From NCBI GenBank assembly GCA_001778375.1, contig MFGV01000001.1:1-64000 (forward strand): a stretch of DNA of 64,000 nt. Reading direction: 5' to 3'. Source of the stretch: Candidatus Firestonebacteria bacterium RIFOXYD2_FULL_39_29. GTDB taxonomy: Bacteria > Oederibacteriota > D2-FULL-39-29. Made by a program: the position numbers and the translations under genes. The notes under the pieces were generated by a model that ran no database searches, was not told the DNA's origin, and saw only the letters and a program-made list of their open reading frames with translations. Positions 13,923 through 33,061 of the stretch are shown here, in pieces. The stretch's first letter is position 1, and each line of letters opens with the position of its first letter.

Positions 13923-15293
13923 TTATCCTACCTTTCCAAATTGCCTTATTTTAAATTTTACTTTTAGTTCTTCTTCCGCCACTTTTCTGCAAGCTTCAAT
14001 ATCCGTCCCCGGAACTGTAACCACACTTGCGATTACTTCCGGTATATATTTTTTTGCCTCTTTTATAAATTCTTTCACACCGGAATAAGCAGCTTCCTTA
14101 AATTGTGATGAACACAGTTTTTGATAGCCTACAGAGTCCGGCGCATTCAGACTAACCGAAATTGCGTCTACAAAACCCGTTAATTCAGGTAAAACATTTC
14201 TCCTGTGAATAAGATTACCCTGACCGTTAGTATCAATCCTTATTCTGGCGCCTTTTGATTTTAGTCTTAAAGCTATCTCCTTTAAAACTTCAAACCTGAT
14301 CATAGGTTCTCCAAAACCGCAGAAAACTACTTCTTTATATTTTGAAACATCTCCTGCTGCTTCTATTATTTCTCCGGCTGTCGGCTCACGGTCAATTGCT
14401 AAATCATGTCCCTTTACCAGCGTACTTTCATTTCTAGCGCAAAAACTGCAATGGTTGGAGCATCTATTGGTCAAATTTATATACAAAGAACCATTTATCT
14501 CATAAACTATCTTACCTCTTTGTTTTACTCCCAATTTAAACAAATAACCTGCATTTAACTCAGACCAATTTGAAACACTTTCAAAAGTAATGCCTTTAAT
14601 CCCGGCAACTTTCTCTGCAGTTTCTTTTAAAAACGCAGGTTCATTTCTCTGCCCTCTTTTTGATTGAGGGGCCAAATAAGGACAATCAGTTTCTAAAAGC
14701 AAACGACTTAACGGTATTTCTTTAACAGCCTCTCTCAAAACCGCAGCACTCGGATAGGTCACAGCCCCGCCAACGGCAATATAAAAACCAAATTTAAGAA
14801 ACTCGTCAAGAAGCATTCTGTCTCCTGTAAAACAATGGAGTACTCCTCCGGCTTCCTGTCCGTTTTCTTCTTTTATTATTCTTATCGTGTCAAGACTGGC
14901 GTCTCTGCTGTGTATAACCAGAGGAAGACATTGATTCCGGGCGATACCAATAAGCCGTCTGAAAACCTTATGTTGATCCTCTTTTGAACAGGTGTTTCTA
15001 AAATAGTCAAGTCCTGTTTCCCCTATACCCACAACTTTCTTATTTGAAGCATTTGTTTTTATATAGTCATAGGCTGTTTCGTCCACTTCCGCACAGTAAT
15101 GCGGGTGAAGCCCTAACGTACAATATATATTATCATATTCTGCTGCTATTTTTAAGGAATTTTTGTTTCCTTCAACATCCGTGCCTATATTAATAATATA
15201 CTTTAAGCCCGCAATTTTTGCATTTTCAATTACTCTCGCTCTATCATCCGAATACTTATCATCTTCCAAATGGGCATGAGAATCAACCAGCAT
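13923..15293 (-). CDS. TatD-family hydrolase fused to a radical SAM domain
   Basis: Residues ~1-255 are a TatD metal-dependent deoxyribonuclease/hydrolase with the metal ligands in DSHAHL, GIGETGLDYF, VIHSRDA, LHCFTG and LLETDCPYLAP. From about residue 270 a radical SAM domain begins, with the cluster motif CSNHCSFC (Cx3Cx2C) and the SAM-binding CGFGEP. The two partners are usually separate neighbouring genes (TatD-associated radical SAM protein); here they form one 456-residue chain. The ATG at 15293 overlaps metG. The radical reaction is unknown; TatD may process DNA ends or act as a quality-control nuclease. Confidence 0.9.
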   Translation of the reverse strand: MLVDSHAHLEDDKYSDDRARVIENAKIAGLKYIINIGTDVEGNKNSLKIAAEYDNIYCTLGLHPHYCAEVDETAYDYIKTNASNKKVVGIGETGLDYFRNTCSKEDQHKVFRRLIGIARNQCLPLVIHSRDASLDTIRIIKEENGQEAGGVLHCFTGDRMLLDEFLKFGFYIAVGGAVTYPSAAVLREAVKEIPLSRLLLETDCPYLAPQSKRGQRNEPAFLKETAEKVAGIKGITFESVSNWSELNAGYLFKLGVKQRGKIVYEINGSLYINLTNRCSNHCSFCARNESTLVKGHDLAIDREPTAGEIIEAAGDVSKYKEVVFCGFGEPMIRFEVLKEIALRLKSKGARIRIDTNGQGNLIHRRNVLPELTGFVDAISVSLNAPDSVGYQKLCSSQFKEAAYSGVKEFIKEAKKYIPEVIASVVTVPGTDIEACRKVAEEELKVKFKIRQFGKVG

Positions 15294-22421: not shown

Positions 22422-24317
22422 CTAATGCTGCACAGGGATAATAACACCTCTCATTATTACTCTTTGTGCAAAACCAAAGATAAATAAAGTAGGTATAGCT
22501 GATACTACAAGAGCGGCCATTAGTAAAGACGGAGATGCCCAAATCTGCATTTCATACAACCATACCATAATAGTCCACATACTTGGGTCCTGACACACAA
22601 GTAAAGCAAACATAAAGGCCGTATAAGCTCCCACAAATGCTCCCAGTGCCAGATATGCAAGTATAGGCTTAGCCAATGGCAGTGTAATATCCCAGAATAT
22701 TTTCATCTCACCTGCTCCATCCATCTGAGCGGCTTCATAGAATTCCTTGGGCAAGCTGTCAAAGAATCCCTTGAGAATAAATATACTATAACCACTCGCC
22801 AGTCCCGGCAATACCAAAGCCCAATATGTATTTAACATATGCAGTTTCTTTAGCATTAAAAAATTAGGTATCATTGCCACTTCTGCAGGAAAAGCCATTG
22901 TTGCAAGCAAAAATATCAAAACCTTGTTACTATATGACAGGCTGAACCTTGAAAGCGCATATGCGCACATCGGATTAACCGTGAGTGTTGTGAATATTAT
23001 AATAAAGCAAAAGATAGCAGTATTAATCACAGCTCTTCCATGCAGAAGAATGTACTCAGATACTTCCTTATAATTTCTGGTAATAAAGTTCATTCTGATT
23101 TTTCCGGGATTTTCCTTCAAATCAAACCAATCGTTCAATTCACAAGGAATTCTAATTTCTTCGAAAGTTTTATACGAAGATGTATACACTTTATTATAAT
23201 CACTAATATTTTTGTACTTCTTCTCCGCAAATTCCCTGAATTTTAATTCACTTGTTTGTATTTTGATATATGATGCAGGAAATGCTGTTTCTTTATCTTT
23301 TATCATCTCCAATATATCAGGGAATATCTTATTATTTACCTCATTTTCATAGTTATCTTTTATTCTTAACTCCTTGAAAGATTTGTATCCTCCCTTAGGA
23401 TTAGACGGAAAATATATAATATTAAGTTTCTCAATTTTCTTGTATTTTTTTTCTAAATATCTGCGATATATCGAATCAGTTCTTTCATCAAGTTTGAAAT
23501 AGATCAAAGGTACTCTTGATTTTGCGAAATACTCCCAATCTTCCTTTATTTTTGTACCTGCTATCGTACCTGAGAATAGTATCTCACTGAACTTTTTATA
23601 GTTTGACTTGTATTTTTCATTAAAAAAAGAAATATTATTATATTTACGTATTAAATATAGCTGAAAATTACCTTCTATTAAAACAGGATACAGATAATTA
23701 TTTGGCAGCTGACTCTTAAATTCCAAATACTCCTTGACCAATAAACTGTCTTCATATTTAAAACCCCTATCATCAAGTCTTTCAAAAGGGCTTCTCAACC
23801 TGGTAAAATCTTCATTTTCCATAGCATATTTTTTATTTACTATTTTAATATCCTTGTATTTATTTTCAATATATTCTCGATAAAGACGTTCCGCCCTTCC
23901 GGTGGCAGAACCTACGACGCGAAACCCCATTGCTTTGTATTGAGCAGGTAATTCTGTCATGTATTCTTCCCAATCAGATCTTACTTTTCGAACATCTATT
24001 CCTGAATATTTCGGAATTTTAACATCTTGAAACCTGAGATAATATTCCGATGCTCTGTGGTTAAACAAGTCAAGACTCGGATTCGTGGCGGTATATTTAT
24101 CTGAAACATACTTTTTAAATAAATACTCTTCATTGTAAAAATATTTTGGTATAACACGATATTCCATATAATCAACTTCATTTGTTGTCGATCCCGCCAA
24201 CATAAGCAAAAACGGATAAACCATGGTAATACCGCCTAAAATTAAAAATAAGTATAAAAGAGCAAAAATAAAAATCGTTTTTGGACTCTTTCTGCCCACT
24301 GAATCTATTAAAGGCAT
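22422..24317 (-). CDS. Sugar ABC transporter permease (MalG type) with a large repeated insert
   Basis: The C-terminal ~425-631 region is a MalG-like permease with the EAA loop EFYEAAQMDGAGEMKIFWDI. The N-terminal helix (~15-40) is also MalG-like. Between them lie about 380 extra, probably extracytoplasmic residues with at least four copies of a motif approximating FxxKYKxIxxxNxxYxxxYKxFxEI, near residues 145-185, 220-262, 284-322 and 358-400, some followed by DW. Ordinary MalG proteins have about 280 residues. The motif recalls segments in GH42-like enzymes; that link is a guess. It follows the binding-protein/permease fusion by 15 bp. No ATPase gene is nearby. Confidence 0.85.
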   Translation of the reverse strand: MPLIDSVGRKSPKTIFIFALLYLFLILGGITMVYPFLLMLAGSTTNEVDYMEYRVIPKYFYNEEYLFKKYVSDKYTATNPSLDLFNHRASEYYLRFQDVKIPKYSGIDVRKVRSDWEEYMTELPAQYKAMGFRVVGSATGRAERLYREYIENKYKDIKIVNKKYAMENEDFTRLRSPFERLDDRGFKYEDSLLVKEYLEFKSQLPNNYLYPVLIEGNFQLYLIRKYNNISFFNEKYKSNYKKFSEILFSGTIAGTKIKEDWEYFAKSRVPLIYFKLDERTDSIYRRYLEKKYKKIEKLNIIYFPSNPKGGYKSFKELRIKDNYENEVNNKIFPDILEMIKDKETAFPASYIKIQTSELKFREFAEKKYKNISDYNKVYTSSYKTFEEIRIPCELNDWFDLKENPGKIRMNFITRNYKEVSEYILLHGRAVINTAIFCFIIIFTTLTVNPMCAYALSRFSLSYSNKVLIFLLATMAFPAEVAMIPNFLMLKKLHMLNTYWALVLPGLASGYSIFILKGFFDSLPKEFYEAAQMDGAGEMKIFWDITLPLAKPILAYLALGAFVGAYTAFMFALLVCQDPSMWTIMVWLYEMQIWASPSLLMAALVVSAIPTLFIFGFAQRVIMRGVIIPVQH

Positions 24318-24332
24318 TTTAAACCCTCCAGC

Positions 24333-26741
24333 CTATAGTTTATTTACAGTCGTAAATCTGACATCGCGCAATATCCGTAATTGCAGTACAGTAAAGCCTA
24401 CCAAAAAGCTTCCCAAAACCCAGGCAATAGCTGTCGCATATCCAAACCTGAGATATACATAAGCATTATAAAATATCTCAAGACCTATAACATGCGTAGC
24501 ATTTGCAGGGCCTCCGCCTGTCATTACTAAAATATTTGAAGTTGCATTAAAAGCTCCTATGAATGCACCCACAAAATTTATTATAAGCAGCATACTCAAA
24601 GTAGGGTATGTAACATGCCTTAATTTACCCCATATCCCGGCTCCGTCTATGGATGAAGATTCATACAATTCTTCGGGAACATTTTTTAATGCTGCAAGAT
24701 AAAAAACACTTCCCGCTCCTACCCCACCCCAGATACCGGGAATGATAATGCAGAGCATCGCAAGTTTTGAGTCAAAAAGCCACATCTGACCCGGAAGATT
24801 AACAGCAGCAAGAAGTTTGTTGAATAAACCTGCCTGACTAGGCTCGTAAAACTGTTTCCAAAGGAGAAGGACTATTATGCCGCTAGTTACAGTCGGAAGG
24901 TAAAATATCATTCTGAAAAACAAAGAACCCCTTGGTATCTCATTAAATATCAAAGCCAGTATTATTGGAGCAAAAAAACCAAGTGCTAATGTCAGAACAA
25001 CGTAAAAAACAGTATTCACTACTGATTGCCAGAAAATAGGCTGCCAAAATAATTGAATGAAATTACCAAGACCTATCCATTCACTGTTTCCGACTATTTT
25101 ATAATTCTGAAAGGCCATCAGCAAACCGCTGCCAACAGGAAAGTATGACCACATCAGTACAGTAATTACAGCAATACCCATAAAAAGCCAGGCAAACATA
25201 TGATTTCTGAAACTTGTCTTCTGATAATTCACAGCATTTGGTTTTGACATTTCCTTAAATATTCTAAACGCCCTGATTCCAAAATAGGAAAAAACAACAG
25301 CAATTACGAAAAGAACAATCCAGACTTTGGCAGTCCTGTTTTTCCGTTCCTTCTCTTCCAGTTTCCCAAGCAATTGCTCATTAGTATGCTTTTCAGCTAT
25401 TGCCAGTTCTGCTGCAATATCAACATTCGGATTACTCTGAATTTTATCAAGTACTACCGAAAGCTCACTATAAATCATATCACAGTTTTTGCCATAAGGC
25501 TCGGGATGTGCGTATTTAAATGCTTCTTCGTTTACTTTTATCCATTGTGGATTGGCATCTTCAAGTAAATCACTATAACCAAAACTCTTAAGATATTTTG
25601 GATTCAAAAACCTGCCCAAACCTTCTTCAACCAATATTCCTGTACTGATTCTTTTTGGTTCTTCACTGCTCATATATTTAAGATATCTTACAGCAGCATC
25701 AAAAACCCGGGGATCTTTAACCTGAGAATTCACTCCAAGCATATCCTGGTTAAACTCTCCGCCTCCTTTACCTGTCGGACCAACAGGTAAAGGTGCAATT
25801 TCATACAATTCCGTATTTGCGCCCGGAGGAAAGAGTTTCTGTTCATCAATATAGTTAAAGCTCATTCCTATTCTGCCTTCAGACATAGCTCTGGTAATTT
25901 CCGTAGAAGAACCTCTAAAAACAACACCCTTATACTTTTTACCGTTTTTTATAAACTCTTCATGGAAAAGTCGCTGATAGAATTTTAATGCCATAATAGT
26001 TTCTTTACTGTTATATACAGCCTGCCACTCGCCTTTTTCATTTTTAGCAACAATGTCACCGCCGGCCTGATAAATAAAATTAAAGAAATGCCAACCGGCT
26101 TCAACTCCCGTAGGTCCCGCATACCCATAGATACCTTTATCAGGGTCATACATTTTTTTTGAATACTCTATAAACTCTTCCCAGTTCTTTGGCGGCTTCT
26201 TTGGATCAAGTCCGGCTTTTGCAAAAACATCTTTTCGATATTGCATTGCCATTATCAGTGGAGCTCCAATTGGAATAAGATATAAATGCTCTTTCCCGTC
26301 AGGAGGACCTTTTTGCATTATAGCCGGCATTATTTTAGGATGGAATTTACTAATCTCTTCATTTGAAAAATACCCGTCCAAAGGCAAATATAACCCTTGA
26401 TCAATATAAGTCGTACTTTTCCTTAAATAACTCAGCATAACATCAGGAGCGGTTCCGCCGGCTAAGGCCATGCTTACAGAATCAGCAGAATCCATACCCG
26501 CCATAGCAATACCTGCAGCCGCTTTTAATTCAAGATCAGGATTTAACTCAAGAAACCTTTCATATACCTGTCTCTCAGCACGCATGTATGCCGATCTAAC
26601 ATCTTTTCTTGGAATACGCCATATTTTAAGTACTACTTTATCGTTACTTTTATTATTTTCCGCAAGAATAATACCAGGTAATGTTATTATTGCCGCGAGA
26701 ATATAAATAAAAAACTTTACATATATAACTTGCTTTTTCAC
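24333..26741 (-). CDS. Fused sugar-binding protein and ABC permease (MalE-MalF type)
   Basis: This 802-residue protein starts with a signal sequence (YVKFFIYILAAIITLPGIILA). An extracellular solute-binding domain follows at ~32-450, with GGTAPDVMLSYLRKS, VFAKAGLDPKKPPKNWEEF and SEGRIGMSFNY. After a helix near 465-490 comes a MalF-like permease (~505-800) with the EAA loop ELYESSSIDGAGIWGKLRHV. Binding protein and permease are normally separate, so the receptor is tethered to its channel. The GTG start is supported by AGGAGG. The partner permease follows, while the ATPase must be encoded elsewhere. The substrate is probably a sugar. Confidence 0.88.
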   Translation of the reverse strand: MKKQVIYVKFFIYILAAIITLPGIILAENNKSNDKVVLKIWRIPRKDVRSAYMRAERQVYERFLELNPDLELKAAAGIAMAGMDSADSVSMALAGGTAPDVMLSYLRKSTTYIDQGLYLPLDGYFSNEEISKFHPKIMPAIMQKGPPDGKEHLYLIPIGAPLIMAMQYRKDVFAKAGLDPKKPPKNWEEFIEYSKKMYDPDKGIYGYAGPTGVEAGWHFFNFIYQAGGDIVAKNEKGEWQAVYNSKETIMALKFYQRLFHEEFIKNGKKYKGVVFRGSSTEITRAMSEGRIGMSFNYIDEQKLFPPGANTELYEIAPLPVGPTGKGGGEFNQDMLGVNSQVKDPRVFDAAVRYLKYMSSEEPKRISTGILVEEGLGRFLNPKYLKSFGYSDLLEDANPQWIKVNEEAFKYAHPEPYGKNCDMIYSELSVVLDKIQSNPNVDIAAELAIAEKHTNEQLLGKLEEKERKNRTAKVWIVLFVIAVVFSYFGIRAFRIFKEMSKPNAVNYQKTSFRNHMFAWLFMGIAVITVLMWSYFPVGSGLLMAFQNYKIVGNSEWIGLGNFIQLFWQPIFWQSVVNTVFYVVLTLALGFFAPIILALIFNEIPRGSLFFRMIFYLPTVTSGIIVLLLWKQFYEPSQAGLFNKLLAAVNLPGQMWLFDSKLAMLCIIIPGIWGGVGAGSVFYLAALKNVPEELYESSSIDGAGIWGKLRHVTYPTLSMLLIINFVGAFIGAFNATSNILVMTGGGPANATHVIGLEIFYNAYVYLRFGYATAIAWVLGSFLVGFTVLQLRILRDVRFTTVNKL

Positions 26742-27639: not shown

Positions 27640-27996
27640 TTACTCCCACTGCAAATATCCTTTTTTCCAGGCATACACGAGACCCAGGATTAAAATACCA
27701 AGGAATAAGGTCATTTCTATAAACGCAAATAATCCAAGCTCCTTAAAAACTACAGCCCAGGGATAAAGGAATATTACTTCCACATCAAAAATAACAAAAA
27801 GTATTGCAAAAAAATAATATCTCATGTTAAACTGAATCCAAGCTCCGCCAACAGGTTCCTCACCGCATTCATAAGTAGTTTCTTTCTCGTAGCCGGGCTT
27901 TGAATCCCTGACCAGGAATGCAGTCACCAGACCTCCGACAGTAAAACCCAGAGCTATAACAAAAAATATAAAAACTGCAAGATATTCATTTATCAT
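27640..27996 (-). CDS. nuoA: NADH-quinone oxidoreductase subunit A
   Basis: At 118 residues with three transmembrane helices it has the full NuoA signature: [34 protein letters not shown] and PWAVVF. NuoA is a small membrane subunit of respiratory complex I beside the quinone channel. Normally it is followed by nuoB, C and D; here none is present. Its ATG overlaps the metF stop (ATGA), so it is translationally coupled to a methylene-THF reductase gene. The rest of complex I may lie elsewhere, or this may be a relict or recruited subunit. Confidence 0.92.
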
Positions 27997-28889
27997 AAGT
28001 CTTTTTCCGCCTTAACTCCCGATAGTTCAAGAATTTTTGGGACTTTATCATCCCAGCCTAAAGGCATCAAATGTACACCCTGGCAGTAAGGCTTTAAATC
28101 TTTTATTAATCTTGCAGATATTTCAATACCTGTTTGACCTGACTTGGTCTTTTCTTTATCTTTCTTTAATTCTTCGATTAAATTGTCCGGGACATGAATG
28201 CCTGCTACATTCTCATTCATAAACTTTGCCATTCCGGCACCTTTAAGCACAACGATTCCGACATAAACAGGCACCCCAAACTGCTTTACTCTTTTCATGA
28301 ACTTTTCAAACTTATCAACTTCATACACTGCCTGAGTCTGAAAGAATTCAATACCAGCATTTATTTTCTTCTCCATTTTAAAGAGCTGAGGATCCAGAGG
28401 CTCCGCGCACGGAGATACAACTGCACCTTTACAAAACCTGGGGGGTTCGCCTTCCAAAGCATTCCCTGCCAGATCCTTGCCTTCTTCCAGTTGTTTTACC
28501 ATATAAGCTAAGGACACCGAATCCAGATCAAATACGGGCTTTGCATCTTTATGATCACCTAAAGTAGTATGATCTCCCGTGAGGAGTAACAGGTTTTCTA
28601 TTCCAAACAAAGCAGCGCTGAGAATATCTGATTGCAAAGCTAAACGGTTCCTGTCTCTGCAGGTAACCTGAAATACCGGCTCAATGCCTTTTTCTTTTAG
28701 AGCTTTACACATAGCCAATCCGCCAAGTCGCATGACTGAAGATTGATTATCCGTAACATTAATTGCATGAACATAAGGCCAAACAACTCCGGCCTCATGA
28801 AGAGCTTTCTCTATATGAAAACCCTTAGGCGGTCCAAGTTCAGAGGTAACAACAAACCTCCCCATTTTTGTGATTTCAGTAAATCTCAT
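27993..28889 (-). CDS. metF: Methylenetetrahydrofolate reductase catalytic subunit (MetF)
   Basis: MetF reduces 5,10-methylene-THF to 5-methyl-THF using a bound flavin. The 298-residue protein shows the TIM-barrel features [49 protein letters not shown] and [16 protein letters not shown]. The frame runs back to a TTG at 28904, but the ATG at 28889 has AAGGAGG four bases upstream and is preferred. Two MetV-domain genes and an RnfC domain lie upstream in the same direction, pointing to an anaerobic MetFV-RnfC2-type enzyme rather than a stand-alone NADH-dependent MetF. Confidence 0.94.
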
Positions 28890-28934
28890 AAAGCCTCCTT
28901 CCAAATAATAATTACTAAGTACTAATGGCTAATG

Positions 28935-29053
28935 CAGACTGTGTCGCAATTACATTTTCGATCTGACGTACCACAATAGGTTGTAGTTGCTCGATTCATC
29001 GAGCGTACCTATTGCGCCTGATGAATCAGGCAACTACATTGCGACACAGTCTG
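28935..29053. repeat. 119-bp element with 16-bp terminal inverted repeats and nested palindromes
   Basis: The ends CAGACTGTGTCGCAAT (28935-28950) and ATTGCGACACAGTCTG (29038-29053) are perfect reverse complements. Inside lie two hairpins, GCTCGATTCATCGAGC (28989-29004) and GCCTGATGAATCAGGC (29016-29031). There are also two interleaved arm pairs: CAATAGGT (28974-28981) with ACCTATTG (29007-29014), and TGTAGTTGC (28982-28990) with GCAACTACA (29030-29038). AATTACTAA occurs just outside on both sides (28910-28918, 29054-29062). It resembles a MITE or REP-like palindromic unit. It carries no gene and lies in the metV-metF gap. Confidence 0.75.
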
Positions 29054-29150
29054 AATTACTAATTAATGAACGCCAACCATAAACCGTTGGCGATTATATT
29101 TATAACTTATTTTCTTTTAAACATTTAACGGATGCTTTTGTCCGTTTACC

Positions 29151-29184
29151 TCAAATTGTCAATTGTAAATCGTAATTCGTAAAT
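29151..29184. repeat. Degenerate short-period intergenic repeat
   Basis: Read on the minus strand the segment runs as AATTTACG, AATTACGA, TTTACAAT, TGACAATT, a decayed 7-8 bp tandem repeat of the TTACGAA type. Similar sequence recurs near 43721-43747 and 63725-63800. It lies in the 299-bp gap between the MetV gene and metF, which otherwise holds the palindromic element. Confidence 0.5.
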
Positions 29185-29188
29185 TTCT

Positions 29189-29803
29189 TTACTGACTTTT
29201 CTTGTAATCGCGGATACTGATCATTTCTTTTAAATTTTTGTCACTTTCATTTATAGCCAACATCCTGTTAAATATTCTTTCCCAGCCGCATTCTTTATTT
29301 TTTGAAACTTCGCACTTTCCATTTTTCGCTCCGCCGCATTGACCATTTAAAAGTCCCTTGGAGCATGCTGTTACAGGACATATCCCGACAGTATATCCCA
29401 ACATGCATTCTCCGCACTGCTCGCAATCGCAAGAAGAAGGTGTAAATCCTGAGAAACCCGGGACATAAAATGTGTCACAACCGGAAAGAACTACTTTATC
29501 AGGAAGCAGACCGGCAAAAGTCTGAACACCTACTCCGCAGGAAAATATAACTACCGATACTGCCGCTGTAATTTCATTTTTATGAATGTCTAATCTCTTT
29601 CTTGTATACTCTTCATTGCACAAGTAGTCCAATTTTATCTCGCCGGATATATTCAATTTGGCAGCTTTTAGCTCTTCCTTGAGCGTTTCATATTCTTTTT
29701 CCGCAAAATGAACTTCTTTACAGCCAAAACAAGCGATCAATAATATTTCACCTTTAAGAAAAGGCAGAATTTCTTCTTTCTTTTTAACTTGAGTGATCAA
29801 CAT
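29189..29803 (-). CDS. MetV-like methylene-THF reductase zinc/Fe-S subunit
   Basis: The 204-residue protein matches the methylene-THF reductase C-terminal (MetV) domain. It has an N-terminal part with LLIACFGCKEVHFAEKEYE and SCGVGVQTFAGLLPDKVV, then the cysteine-rich CEQCGECMLGYTVGICPV and GLLNGQCGGAKNGKCEVSK. In acetogens MetV partners MetF and passes electrons from an RnfC-like NADH-oxidising subunit. Here it is downstream of, and overlaps by one base, a longer gene that itself holds a MetV domain fused to RnfC, so there are two MetV copies. Cofactor content is inferred. Confidence 0.88.
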   Translation of the reverse strand: MLITQVKKKEEILPFLKGEILLIACFGCKEVHFAEKEYETLKEELKAAKLNISGEIKLDYLCNEEYTRKRLDIHKNEITAAVSVVIFSCGVGVQTFAGLLPDKVVLSGCDTFYVPGFSGFTPSSCDCEQCGECMLGYTVGICPVTACSKGLLNGQCGGAKNGKCEVSKNKECGWERIFNRMLAINESDKNLKEMISIRDYKKSQ

Positions 29804-31785
29804 TACTTTTTTATCTCCCGCAGCATTTTCTTTGACTTTTTAAATATTTCGACCATATGTGATTTAGAAGAACAAATCTCCTCGCAGCAACCGCACTCGA
29901 TGCAATTCATTATGCCTTCTTTTTCTATTTTAACCCAATTTTCAGCTTTGGCATAGAAAACAAGTTTATGCGGTTTCAGCTCCATCGGGCAAACATTAAC
30001 GCATCTGCCGCATTTAATACAAGGTTCTTCCGTCAGATCATCTTTCTTTTGAACTACCGCAATACCGTTTGTACCTTTAATTACTGGCACTTCATAATCA
30101 TTTTGAGTAAAGCCCATTACGGCTCCGCCCATTTTAAGTTCGAATTTTTCAGGTACTTTTATACCGCAGACCTTGATTATATCAGATACAAGCATTCCTA
30201 TAGGTACTTCATAGTTCCCGGGTTTAGAAACACCTTCACCTGCTACTGTAACTACTCTGCTGACAAGCGGCATTCCTGAATATATTGAATCGTATACAGC
30301 ACAAGCCGTTCCAATATTATTTACTATTACACCGACATCCAAAGGAAGACCGCCAAGAGGAACTTCCCGTCCCAAAATCCTTTTTATAAGCATTCTCTCT
30401 GCGCCTTCAGGATATTTAGTTTTTACCGAAACTATTTCAACAGATGTTTCTGCTTTACACTTTTCTTTAAGAGCTTCCAGCGCTTCAGGTTTATTATCCT
30501 CTACAGCAATAATTCCTTTTTTAACACCTGCAGCTTTCATAAGCAGCTTAAATCCCATGAGGACTTTCCCGGGTCTCTCAACCATCAATCTAAAATCAGC
30601 ATTAAGCAGAGGTTCGCATTCACAGCCATTCAACAAAATAGTGTCCACGGGTTTGTTTGAGCTCAATTTTATATGCGAGGGGAACTGCGCCCCTCCCATC
30701 CCGACAATACCGGCATTTTTTATTGCAGAAATTATACTTTCTTTCGAGCAGCTCTCAAGAGTCCCTTTTGGAATAATAGAAGGATCCTGTTCGTTTTTCA
30801 TGTCATTTTTTATGCCAATTGTTAAAACGTCAAAAGGAAGCAAAGGATGTTTTCGCGGTTCCACAAAAATAACTTCTCCTGAGACACCGGAATGAACAAA
30901 AGCTGTAACCATCGCTTTTGAATCGCCTATTTTCTGTCCGACTTTAACTCTATCACCTATTTTTACAAATGGTTCACATATTACGCCGGCATGCTGCTGA
31001 AGAGGGATATAAACATATTCGGGAGGAGATATCTTCTCAATGGCTATTTTTGCGGTAAGTTCTTTTCTTTCCTCAGGATATATTCCGCCGTAGAAACCTT
31101 CATTTCTCTTTGCCTGTATGAATTTGACATAGGAATCAACAAAGTCTGCACTGTTTTTATTATAATTTCGCAGTTTTGGCAACTGTTCAATAAATATATT
31201 TTGACGATTTTGACAGGCTAAACGATTATAAATATTTTCCCAGGCACAATCTTTTTCTTTTGATACTTCACACTTGCCTTTTTTTGCACCGCCGCAGGGC
31301 CCGTTAATTAATCCCTTACTGCAATCCACAACAGGGCATATGCCTCCGGTAACACTGAGATAACACTCCCCGCAGGCACCGCATTTTTCCACACCTAAGG
31401 TAATCCCGTGAAAGCCGCCTTGAAAGACGGAATCACAAACAGTCAACACAGGAATATTTAGCTGTCCGGCAACGGTTTGAACACCTACCCCGCAAGAGAT
31501 AACAGCAACTGCATCCGCATTATTAATATCCTGCATTACATTTTTTAATAACTTACCGGTAAGATATTCATTACAGAGGAAATCCATGTGCATAAATCCT
31601 ACCGTGGTTTTTCCGGATTCATTGAGGAGTTTATTTAACTCAGCAGTTTCTGGTTCAACATCCAGGGCAAATTCATTAAAGCATTTATTACAAGAGATGA
31701 TATAAATTCTTTCTTGTCCTGCAAGTATCTCCAGTATCTCTTCTTTACTCTTTAGCTTGTATTTCGTGTAATCAGTTTTTTGCAT
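29803..31785 (-). CDS. MetV-RnfC fusion protein (probable NADH-oxidising methylene-THF reductase subunit)
   Basis: Residues ~1-200 are a MetV domain, with FLCNEYLTGK, SCGVGVQTVAGQLN, CGACGECYLSVTGGICPV and GLINGPCGGAKKGKCEVSK. The rest, ~245-660, is RnfC-like: the N-terminal barrel region (FVKIGDRVKVGQKIGDSK), GIVGMGGAQFPSHIK, LLNGCECEPLLNADFRLM, and two ferredoxin-like 4Fe-4S motifs CIKCGRCVNVCP and CIECGCCEEIC. The open frame starts at a TTG at 31815 inside the upstream gene; the ATG at 31785, two bases past its stop, is more likely (660 residues). RnfC2 in Acetobacterium is a separate protein. The fusion suggests NADH oxidation and MetV in one chain. Confidence 0.9.
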   Translation of the reverse strand: MQKTDYTKYKLKSKEEILEILAGQERIYIISCNKCFNEFALDVEPETAELNKLLNESGKTTVGFMHMDFLCNEYLTGKLLKNVMQDINNADAVAVISCGVGVQTVAGQLNIPVLTVCDSVFQGGFHGITLGVEKCGACGECYLSVTGGICPVVDCSKGLINGPCGGAKKGKCEVSKEKDCAWENIYNRLACQNRQNIFIEQLPKLRNYNKNSADFVDSYVKFIQAKRNEGFYGGIYPEERKELTAKIAIEKISPPEYVYIPLQQHAGVICEPFVKIGDRVKVGQKIGDSKAMVTAFVHSGVSGEVIFVEPRKHPLLPFDVLTIGIKNDMKNEQDPSIIPKGTLESCSKESIISAIKNAGIVGMGGAQFPSHIKLSSNKPVDTILLNGCECEPLLNADFRLMVERPGKVLMGFKLLMKAAGVKKGIIAVEDNKPEALEALKEKCKAETSVEIVSVKTKYPEGAERMLIKRILGREVPLGGLPLDVGVIVNNIGTACAVYDSIYSGMPLVSRVVTVAGEGVSKPGNYEVPIGMLVSDIIKVCGIKVPEKFELKMGGAVMGFTQNDYEVPVIKGTNGIAVVQKKDDLTEEPCIKCGRCVNVCPMELKPHKLVFYAKAENWVKIEKEGIMNCIECGCCEEICSSKSHMVEIFKKSKKMLREIKK

Positions 31786-31786
31786 A

Positions 31787-33061
31787 TTAAGAGTATTTTT
31801 TGTATTCCGAATCAAGCTTAAACCTGACTTTCGGATCCTTTCCGTATTCTATTACCGCAGGCTTTCCCCCGTTCATAATAGAGAGCCTGCCGGCCTCCAT
31901 CACCAGTTCATTATAATAACTGTTAGCCGGAGTGGCAACTACACCTTCTTTATCTATTTTCATGATTATATTTTTCTTTTCTTCTGTACTCTTCCCCTCT
32001 TCCACCCTTAGAGCAGATAAAATATTAGCTTCTATTGATCTATAGCCATACCCTACCGGCTCATAACCTTCCCCTCCGTGATAAACCATCTGAAAGTATT
32101 CAGGATTGGTCTCATAATAAAATTTATCATCAGGATCATTTCCCTTCGTCAGTACGGAATGTTTAACCCCTCTGAACTGGTCAGAGTGGGATATCATTCC
32201 GCCCATATCCTTATTTTGTGTATGAAGAACCATTCCCTGGGTATTTCCGCCCGGACCCTGATCAGGATAGCCAAAACCGTTGACCACATTTAAGCAGGCT
32301 CCATTATTCCAGAGCACCCGGCCGTCAGTCCAGAGAAAACCTTCATTACCGTTGGGATACTTATCAGGAATTCCATATACCGAGACTTCTACCGGAAGGA
32401 GCCCGGTAATAAAAGCCACTAAGTCAATATAATGACAGCCTACATAAGAAAAAGCATCGGAATTCTTTAAAGTACACCAATTTTGAAAATTCGAATGTCT
32501 GTAATACCAGGGCTCAATAAGATGCGCCTGCCCTATCCTAAACTCTCCAAACTCACCGTTTTGATACCTGCGCCGGGCTATAAGACCTCTGTCATCAAAC
32601 CTTTTATGATATTCCACGCCAACAAATAAACCTTTTGAAAGAGCTTCTTCTTCTATTTCCTTAGCTTCTTTGTATTTTAATACTAACGGTTTAACACTAC
32701 ATACATGTTGATTGTTTTTTAAGGCTTCTTTTATGACCATATAATGCAGCTGATCCGGCATAGCCACAAAAACAAAATTACCCGGTTTCATTTTTTTTAT
32801 TACATCCTTGAACAGATCAGGATAATTATTTGTAAGATCGCCTTTTTTATAGTCAGGATAAGAATTAAAAGACTGCCCCGGAAAAGACTTACAAAGCATC
32901 CCATTTTCCCCGAGCGCTTTTAAAGGCGCACCATTTAACGCAACTATATCGATATTTCCGACAAGTCCTTTACGCTGAAGCTGATAAATGGAAGGAAGTA
33001 TTTGAACAGCCGTGATCATTCCCCCGCCGACTATGGTTACATCTATTTTACGACTGGACAT
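31787..33061 (-). CDS. Gfo/Idh/MocA-family oxidoreductase
   Basis: The 424-residue protein begins with a Rossmann fold (VTIVGGGMITAVQILPSI). It has VAMPDQLHYMVIKEALKNNQHVCSVKPLV in the family position, with VKP in place of the usual EKP, so the catalytic lysine is kept. The C-terminal part (SYVGCHYIDLVAFITGL) forms the substrate half. Family members oxidise or epimerise sugars and inositols with NAD(P). It precedes the MetV-RnfC gene by one or two bases, an unexpected partner. The substrate is unknown; the nearby sugar genes suggest a carbohydrate or cyclitol. Confidence 0.87.
   Translation of the reverse strand: MSSRKIDVTIVGGGMITAVQILPSIYQLQRKGLVGNIDIVALNGAPLKALGENGMLCKSFPGQSFNSYPDYKKGDLTNNYPDLFKDVIKKMKPGNFVFVAMPDQLHYMVIKEALKNNQHVCSVKPLVLKYKEAKEIEEEALSKGLFVGVEYHKRFDDRGLIARRRYQNGEFGEFRIGQAHLIEPWYYRHSNFQNWCTLKNSDAFSYVGCHYIDLVAFITGLLPVEVSVYGIPDKYPNGNEGFLWTDGRVLWNNGACLNVVNGFGYPDQGPGGNTQGMVLHTQNKDMGGMISHSDQFRGVKHSVLTKGNDPDDKFYYETNPEYFQMVYHGGEGYEPVGYGYRSIEANILSALRVEEGKSTEEKKNIIMKIDKEGVVATPANSYYNELVMEAGRLSIMNGGKPAVIEYGKDPKVRFKLDSEYKKYS

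Follow-up and report, generated by a model that had tools for sequence, protein, structure and literature searches.

What does a tandem-repeat domain do in the outer loop of a sugar permease? The question is raised by a gene in a 64,000-nucleotide stretch of Candidatus Firestonebacteria DNA (contig MFGV01000001.1; hereafter the window), whose product is a MalG-like permease with a long insert after its first transmembrane helix. CUT1 importers are among the best understood of transport machines, and in this one both elements of the outer face are rebuilt, with a binding protein fused to one permease subunit and a glycosidase-derived repeat arm carried by the other (Table 1). We found no description of a CUT1 importer with such an arm in the literature searched, which lay mostly outside subscription journals.

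Table 1. Coordinates of the permease pair and its parts in the window.
Feature	Position	Strand	Residues	Basis or remark
MalG/UgpE-type permease with repeat insert	22422..24317	(-)	631 aa	ORF
TM1	24189..24284	(-)	12-43	AF2 helix; hydropathy 10-45
Insert (predicted extracytoplasmic)	23082..24182	(-)	46-412 (~367 residues)	folds alone, pLDDT 91.6 / pTM 0.89
Repeat 1	23934..24128	(-)	64-128	repeat HMM and cross-profile test
Repeat 2	23694..23891	(-)	143-208	repeat HMM and cross-profile test
Repeat 3	23499..23666	(-)	218-273	repeat HMM and cross-profile test
Repeat 4	23268..23477	(-)	281-350	repeat HMM and cross-profile test
Repeat 5	23127..23246	(-)	358-397	Pfam scores GH42 here (343-395)
Permease transmembrane core	22425..23081	(-)	413-631	includes BPD_transp_1, 462-625
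EAA (coupling helix) motif EAAQMDGAGEMKIFWDITLPL	22674..22736	(-)	528-548	read from sequence
Partner: solute-binding protein fused to MalF/UgpA-type permease	24333..26741	(-)	802 aa	
SBP_bac_1 domain of partner	25656..26570	(-)	58-362	
Tethering TM helix of partner	25254..25337	(-)	469-496	hydropathy
MalF-type transmembrane core of partner	24360..25205	(-)	513-794	

An earlier note on this DNA had read the gene as a MalG-like permease, and both the reading and the limits it gave were right, on the minus strand. Pfam BPD_transp_1 (PF00528) matches the core with an E-value of 1.7e-15 and 57.6 bits, against a gathering score of 26.4. The product has a TM1 (about residues 10-45), a TM2 (about 422-456), a permease core and an EAA coupling motif, in whose region E528, G534, E537 and P551 are conserved columns; together with a MalF-type partner, a binding protein and a MalK-type ATPase in the same genome, these are the marks of a CUT1-type importer. 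The nearest NCBIfam models are UgpE and MalG, although the permease misses the equivalog cut-off of both (100.7 vs 297 and 61.5 vs 261). Its best solved-structure relatives, by sequence and by fold, are AlgM2, MalG and SugB, and E. coli MalG and MalF are both among the best matches. The loop at the position of the insert is periplasmic and short in E. coli MalG.

The insert, put at about 380 residues in the earlier note, spans some 367 between TM1 and TM2. Positive charge at the N-terminus and the position of the EAA motif identify the cytoplasmic side, and the topology thus places the insert in the P1 loop, where it would be extracytoplasmic, in support of the note's idea of a rebuilt outer face. 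Five repeats were located within it by an HMM grown from the window protein's own segments. As such a model is circular, the orthologues were used to make one profile per repeat position, and all ten pairs of these profiles aligned with one another (hhalign probability 95.5-98.8%). With the window sequence left out of the profiles, 17 of 20 cross-comparisons ranked the other repeats of the window protein ahead of all the 1000 shuffles; the three that fell short were repeat 1 scored by the repeat 2 profile (14 shuffles as high), repeat 1 by repeat 5 (9) and repeat 2 by repeat 3 (1). The cross-profile comparison and the shuffles rule out chance resemblance, and the internal repeats are significant. 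They had been counted as "at least four", which was correct in kind but understated in number, and the motif of the family is better described by [YF]xx[FYW]Lxx[KR][YF]xxIxxxNxxYGTxYxSFxEVxxP...DWxxFxxxLP.

AlphaFold2 predicted the insert alone with a pLDDT of 91.6 and a pTM of 0.89 (30 sequences), and the whole permease with a pLDDT of 73.7 (13 sequences). The confidence of the first prediction rules out a disordered insert. In the predicted structure each unit runs helix, helix, short helical turn, helix and three-residue strand, and the spacing of the units suggests an alpha/beta solenoid. The folded insert, taken over its whole length, has no match with E <= 0.001 in the copy of the PDB that we searched, which makes it a tandem-repeat fold with no solved example there.

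At the level of single repeats, relatives are found among glycoside hydrolases, where the earlier note had suggested looking. Pfam Glyco_hydro_42 (PF02449) scores 24.7 bits on the segment around repeat 5, against a cut-off of 21, and GH42 is matched in 28 of 40 relatives (best E 4.7e-20) and GH14 in 8 of 40. A single-repeat profile searched against the PDB found residues 158-214 of 6LVW (E 1.6e-7) and 157-213 of 1KWG (E 3e-7), both GH42 enzymes, and the repeat-sized Foldseek matches were to GH14, GH42, GH167 and GH50 enzymes (probability up to 0.97, with E-values of about 1 or above). In GH42 beta-galactosidases and GH14 beta-amylases a helical segment comes after the catalytic acid; judged by these alignments, each repeat represents this segment and has no catalytic or known sugar-contact residues. 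This kinship explains why domain searches may tag such permeases as beta-galactosidase.

The likeness to the GH42 beta-galactosidases (1KWG, 6LVW) and GH14 beta-amylases (1VEP, 3VOC) covers 50-60 residues, in sequence and predicted fold. The enzymes contain the segment once, inside a TIM barrel, whereas the insert strings about 3-7 of them in tandem with no barrel and no catalytic residues: the repeats align to 1KWG 157-213 only, outside the acid/base and nucleophile Glu141 and Glu312. A degenerate GH42 enzyme lodged whole in the permease is thereby ruled out, as the post-acid segment alone recurs, with neither barrel nor acid. The published galactose contacts of 1KWG (Arg102, Asn140, Glu141, Tyr266, Glu312, Trp320, Phe350, Glu360 and His363; PMC7602713) all fall outside 157-213 as well, so descent from this segment alone does not imply sugar binding. 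In a repeat-profile search of 17 genomes, every listed multi-copy run that could be assigned belonged to the MalG family, and the remaining matches were scattered stretches in other large frames.

The earlier note had linked the insert to the fused binding protein encoded next to it, and this link proved real and far stronger than a single locus could suggest. We assembled 41 pairs of insert-bearing MalG and binding-protein-MalF chains, and in all 41 the binding protein is fused, whether the two genes are linked (32) or not (9). The two genes adjoin in most loci of the relatives; in many Armatimonadota the insert-bearing MalG stands alone among housekeeping genes and the fused partner is encoded elsewhere in the genome. 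One 87% complete MAG (G170) yielded no close partner, and two genomes (G091, G176) yielded partial ones. At the plain MalG loci of the same phylum (L169-L172), binding protein and MalF are separate. Two further loci (L071, L077) encode binding-protein-MalF fusions whose MalG is without repeats; the fusion can thus exist where the insert does not, so that the insert seems to depend on the fusion and not the reverse.

Among 45 genomes of the window's phylum, MalG carries the insert in the order of the window (families f1 and f2) and in family f4, and the other families have plain MalG. The main holders of the insert are Armatimonadota. It is present in 98 of 201 sampled genomes of Armatimonadota (63 of 121 genera), mostly as one gene per genome in Fimbriimonadaceae. 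In other lineages it is rare, a 384-genome sample adding no more than three carriers (G311, G464 and G543), and a single-protein scan of genome contigs returned plain Bacillota MalG only. An assembly or gene-fusion artefact of one MAG can be ruled out, as genomes of the same order keep the gene and the gene order and complete single-contig genomes (e.g. G175) carry the insert. In a tree built from the transmembrane cores alone, all 54 insert-bearing rows lie on one side of a single branch with a support of 99; thus, in this sample, the insert arose once. The window's order is nested among Armatimonadota rows, a placement that lateral transfer would fit.

The shortest inserts, those of Fimbriimonadaceae, have about 240 residues, or roughly three units; the length is about 300 at L161 and L163 and about 360 in most relatives. 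The longest array seen is in a 758-aa protein (L253:6259-8535) that adjoins a fused binding-protein-MalF gene and whose insert of about 495 residues has about seven detectable repeats, the first of them weak. From these lengths, repeat number changes in units, and Fimbriimonadaceae have probably lost repeats, because the family is nested in the tree. In another genome (G005) a second copy of the gene (L069:7941-9822) is broken within the insert, by a frameshift or a sequencing error, and reads as two overlapping frames. Two repeat-less MalG homologues (L071:8584-10320 and L075:187-1917) have other, apparently unrelated domains at the TM1-TM2 loop, a site that therefore seems to accept inserts repeatedly.

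In close pairs, dN/dS was 0.04-0.16 for the insert and 0.01-0.07 for the core, rough values with dS near saturation, and to judge from these ratios the insert is under purifying selection. Between relatives, identity is 23-47% in the insert, 58-78% in the MalG core and 37-66% in the binding protein. Insert and binding-protein distances remained correlated once the cores were removed (r 0.21, p 0.004); this weak correlation does not exceed that of insert and MalF (0.24), so the binding protein is not singled out and we do not use the correlation as support.

We propose, with a probability of roughly 0.5, that the insert is a rigid extracytoplasmic repeat arm on the MalG side of a CUT1-type sugar importer and acts as a scaffold for the tethered binding protein. 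The insert accompanies a binding protein that is fused to the other subunit of the importer, and the arm is thus probably a scaffold for this protein. Composed of five GH42/GH14-type helical repeats in the first extracytoplasmic loop of MalG, the arm would stand on the outer face beside the translocation pore and, itself non-catalytic, would receive, orient or limit the binding protein, which is joined to the MalF-side subunit through the extra transmembrane helix. A UgpC-type ATPase, shared and encoded at another locus of the genome, probably supplies the energy, and what the importer takes up is probably a sugar or sugar phosphate. More tentatively, and at somewhat less than even odds, these importers would form a tethered-binding-protein class whose variable-length arm, recruited once from a glycosidase fold and then duplicated, works as an adjustable guide or clamp. 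The insert evolves faster than the binding protein, however, and its repeats number anywhere from about 3 to 7, both unusual in a surface for precise docking.

The arm could also bind glycans multivalently and, in the manner of starch-binding accessory domains, keep the ends of polysaccharides or oligosaccharides close to the importer. Its repeat is related to part of a carbohydrate-active enzyme fold, each repeat has conserved aromatics, the variable copy number (about 3-7) suits multivalent weak binding, and fast evolution could track ligands. However, the galactose-contact residues of GH42 lie outside the equivalent segment, the conserved aromatics (Y/F, W, F) recur at the same places in the helices and may belong to the core, and a single gene per genome in most Fimbriimonadaceae, with housekeeping neighbours, is unlike polysaccharide-utilisation loci. 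Of the two functions floated in the earlier note, grabbing a polymer is therefore not supported by the GH42 comparison, polymer binding by the arm being possible but weakened, and we consider a glycan-binding surface unlikely; the role in binding a partner protein is favoured.

That partner need not be the tethered binding protein. An arm that bound the cell wall, an outer-membrane protein or an enzyme would place the importer at a site in the envelope, and faster evolution than that of the binding protein, with a variable repeat number, is as expected for a spacer or reach element; the non-specific signal between insert and binding protein is also consistent with this. Yet the strict link is to the fused binding-protein-MalF chain, and neighbourhoods compared by eye contain no third gene conserved with the pair across lineages, and we regard an envelope anchor as quite improbable. 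Nor do we put much weight on the insert being a spacer or stabiliser, enlarged by duplication, that makes no specific contact. Copy number and sequence vary, and the unrelated inserts at the same site in the L071 and L075 homologues would suit such an origin, but the purifying selection, the retention across many families since a single origin and the confident predicted fold all argue against it.

A scaffold for the tethered binding protein would have a counterpart in the E. coli maltose importer MalFGK2-MalE, which shares the CUT1 permease pair and the EAA motif and in which one permease subunit likewise bears an extracytoplasmic domain close to the binding protein. In E. coli that domain, P2, lies in MalF and is not known to be built of repeats or to be kin to GH42; MalE is free, whereas the binding protein of the window importer is fused and membrane-tethered. 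Papers cited by PMC8134467 describe a part played in binding-protein signalling by P2, the second periplasmic loop of MalF, and the role of the arm would be comparable. The systems that the transmembrane core matches best in sequence and fold, the Sphingomonas alginate importer AlgM1-AlgM2 and mycobacterial LpqY-SugABC, have no repeat arm and an unfused binding protein; the window importer has both arm and fusion. OpuA and GlnPQ are importers with binding domains fused to the permease. They resemble the window importer in this covalent joining but belong to other transporter families and are not known to have a repeat insert; PMC8276074 makes a general statement on ABC transporters fused to binding proteins. 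With about 3, 4, 5 or 7 repeats, the arms offer a natural set for relating the geometry of docking to transport when the binding protein is tethered.

The tested genomes each have one TOBE_2 ATPase. That of the window genome, of UgpC type, is encoded apart from the permeases (L247:652-2744) and is followed by a ROK sugar kinase gene. Neighbours of the permease loci are mostly housekeeping genes that vary between genomes, and they indicate no substrate. In the window's order the locus is syntenic, running MetF - nuoA - SBP-MalF - MalG - rny - ymdB, with a cyclo-ligase gene displaced in the window. The nuoA-like gene (27640-27996 of the window) adjoins MetF and is kept beside the importer in two other genomes (G002 and G005). 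Positions 27993-31815 hold a C1/Rnf electron-transfer cluster of MetF, a DUF5981 protein and a chain in which an N-terminus like that of the DUF5981 protein is fused to RnfC (rnfC, 241-668). Farther off, at 13923-15293, a TatD-like nuclease appears, from its sequence, to be fused to a radical SAM domain.
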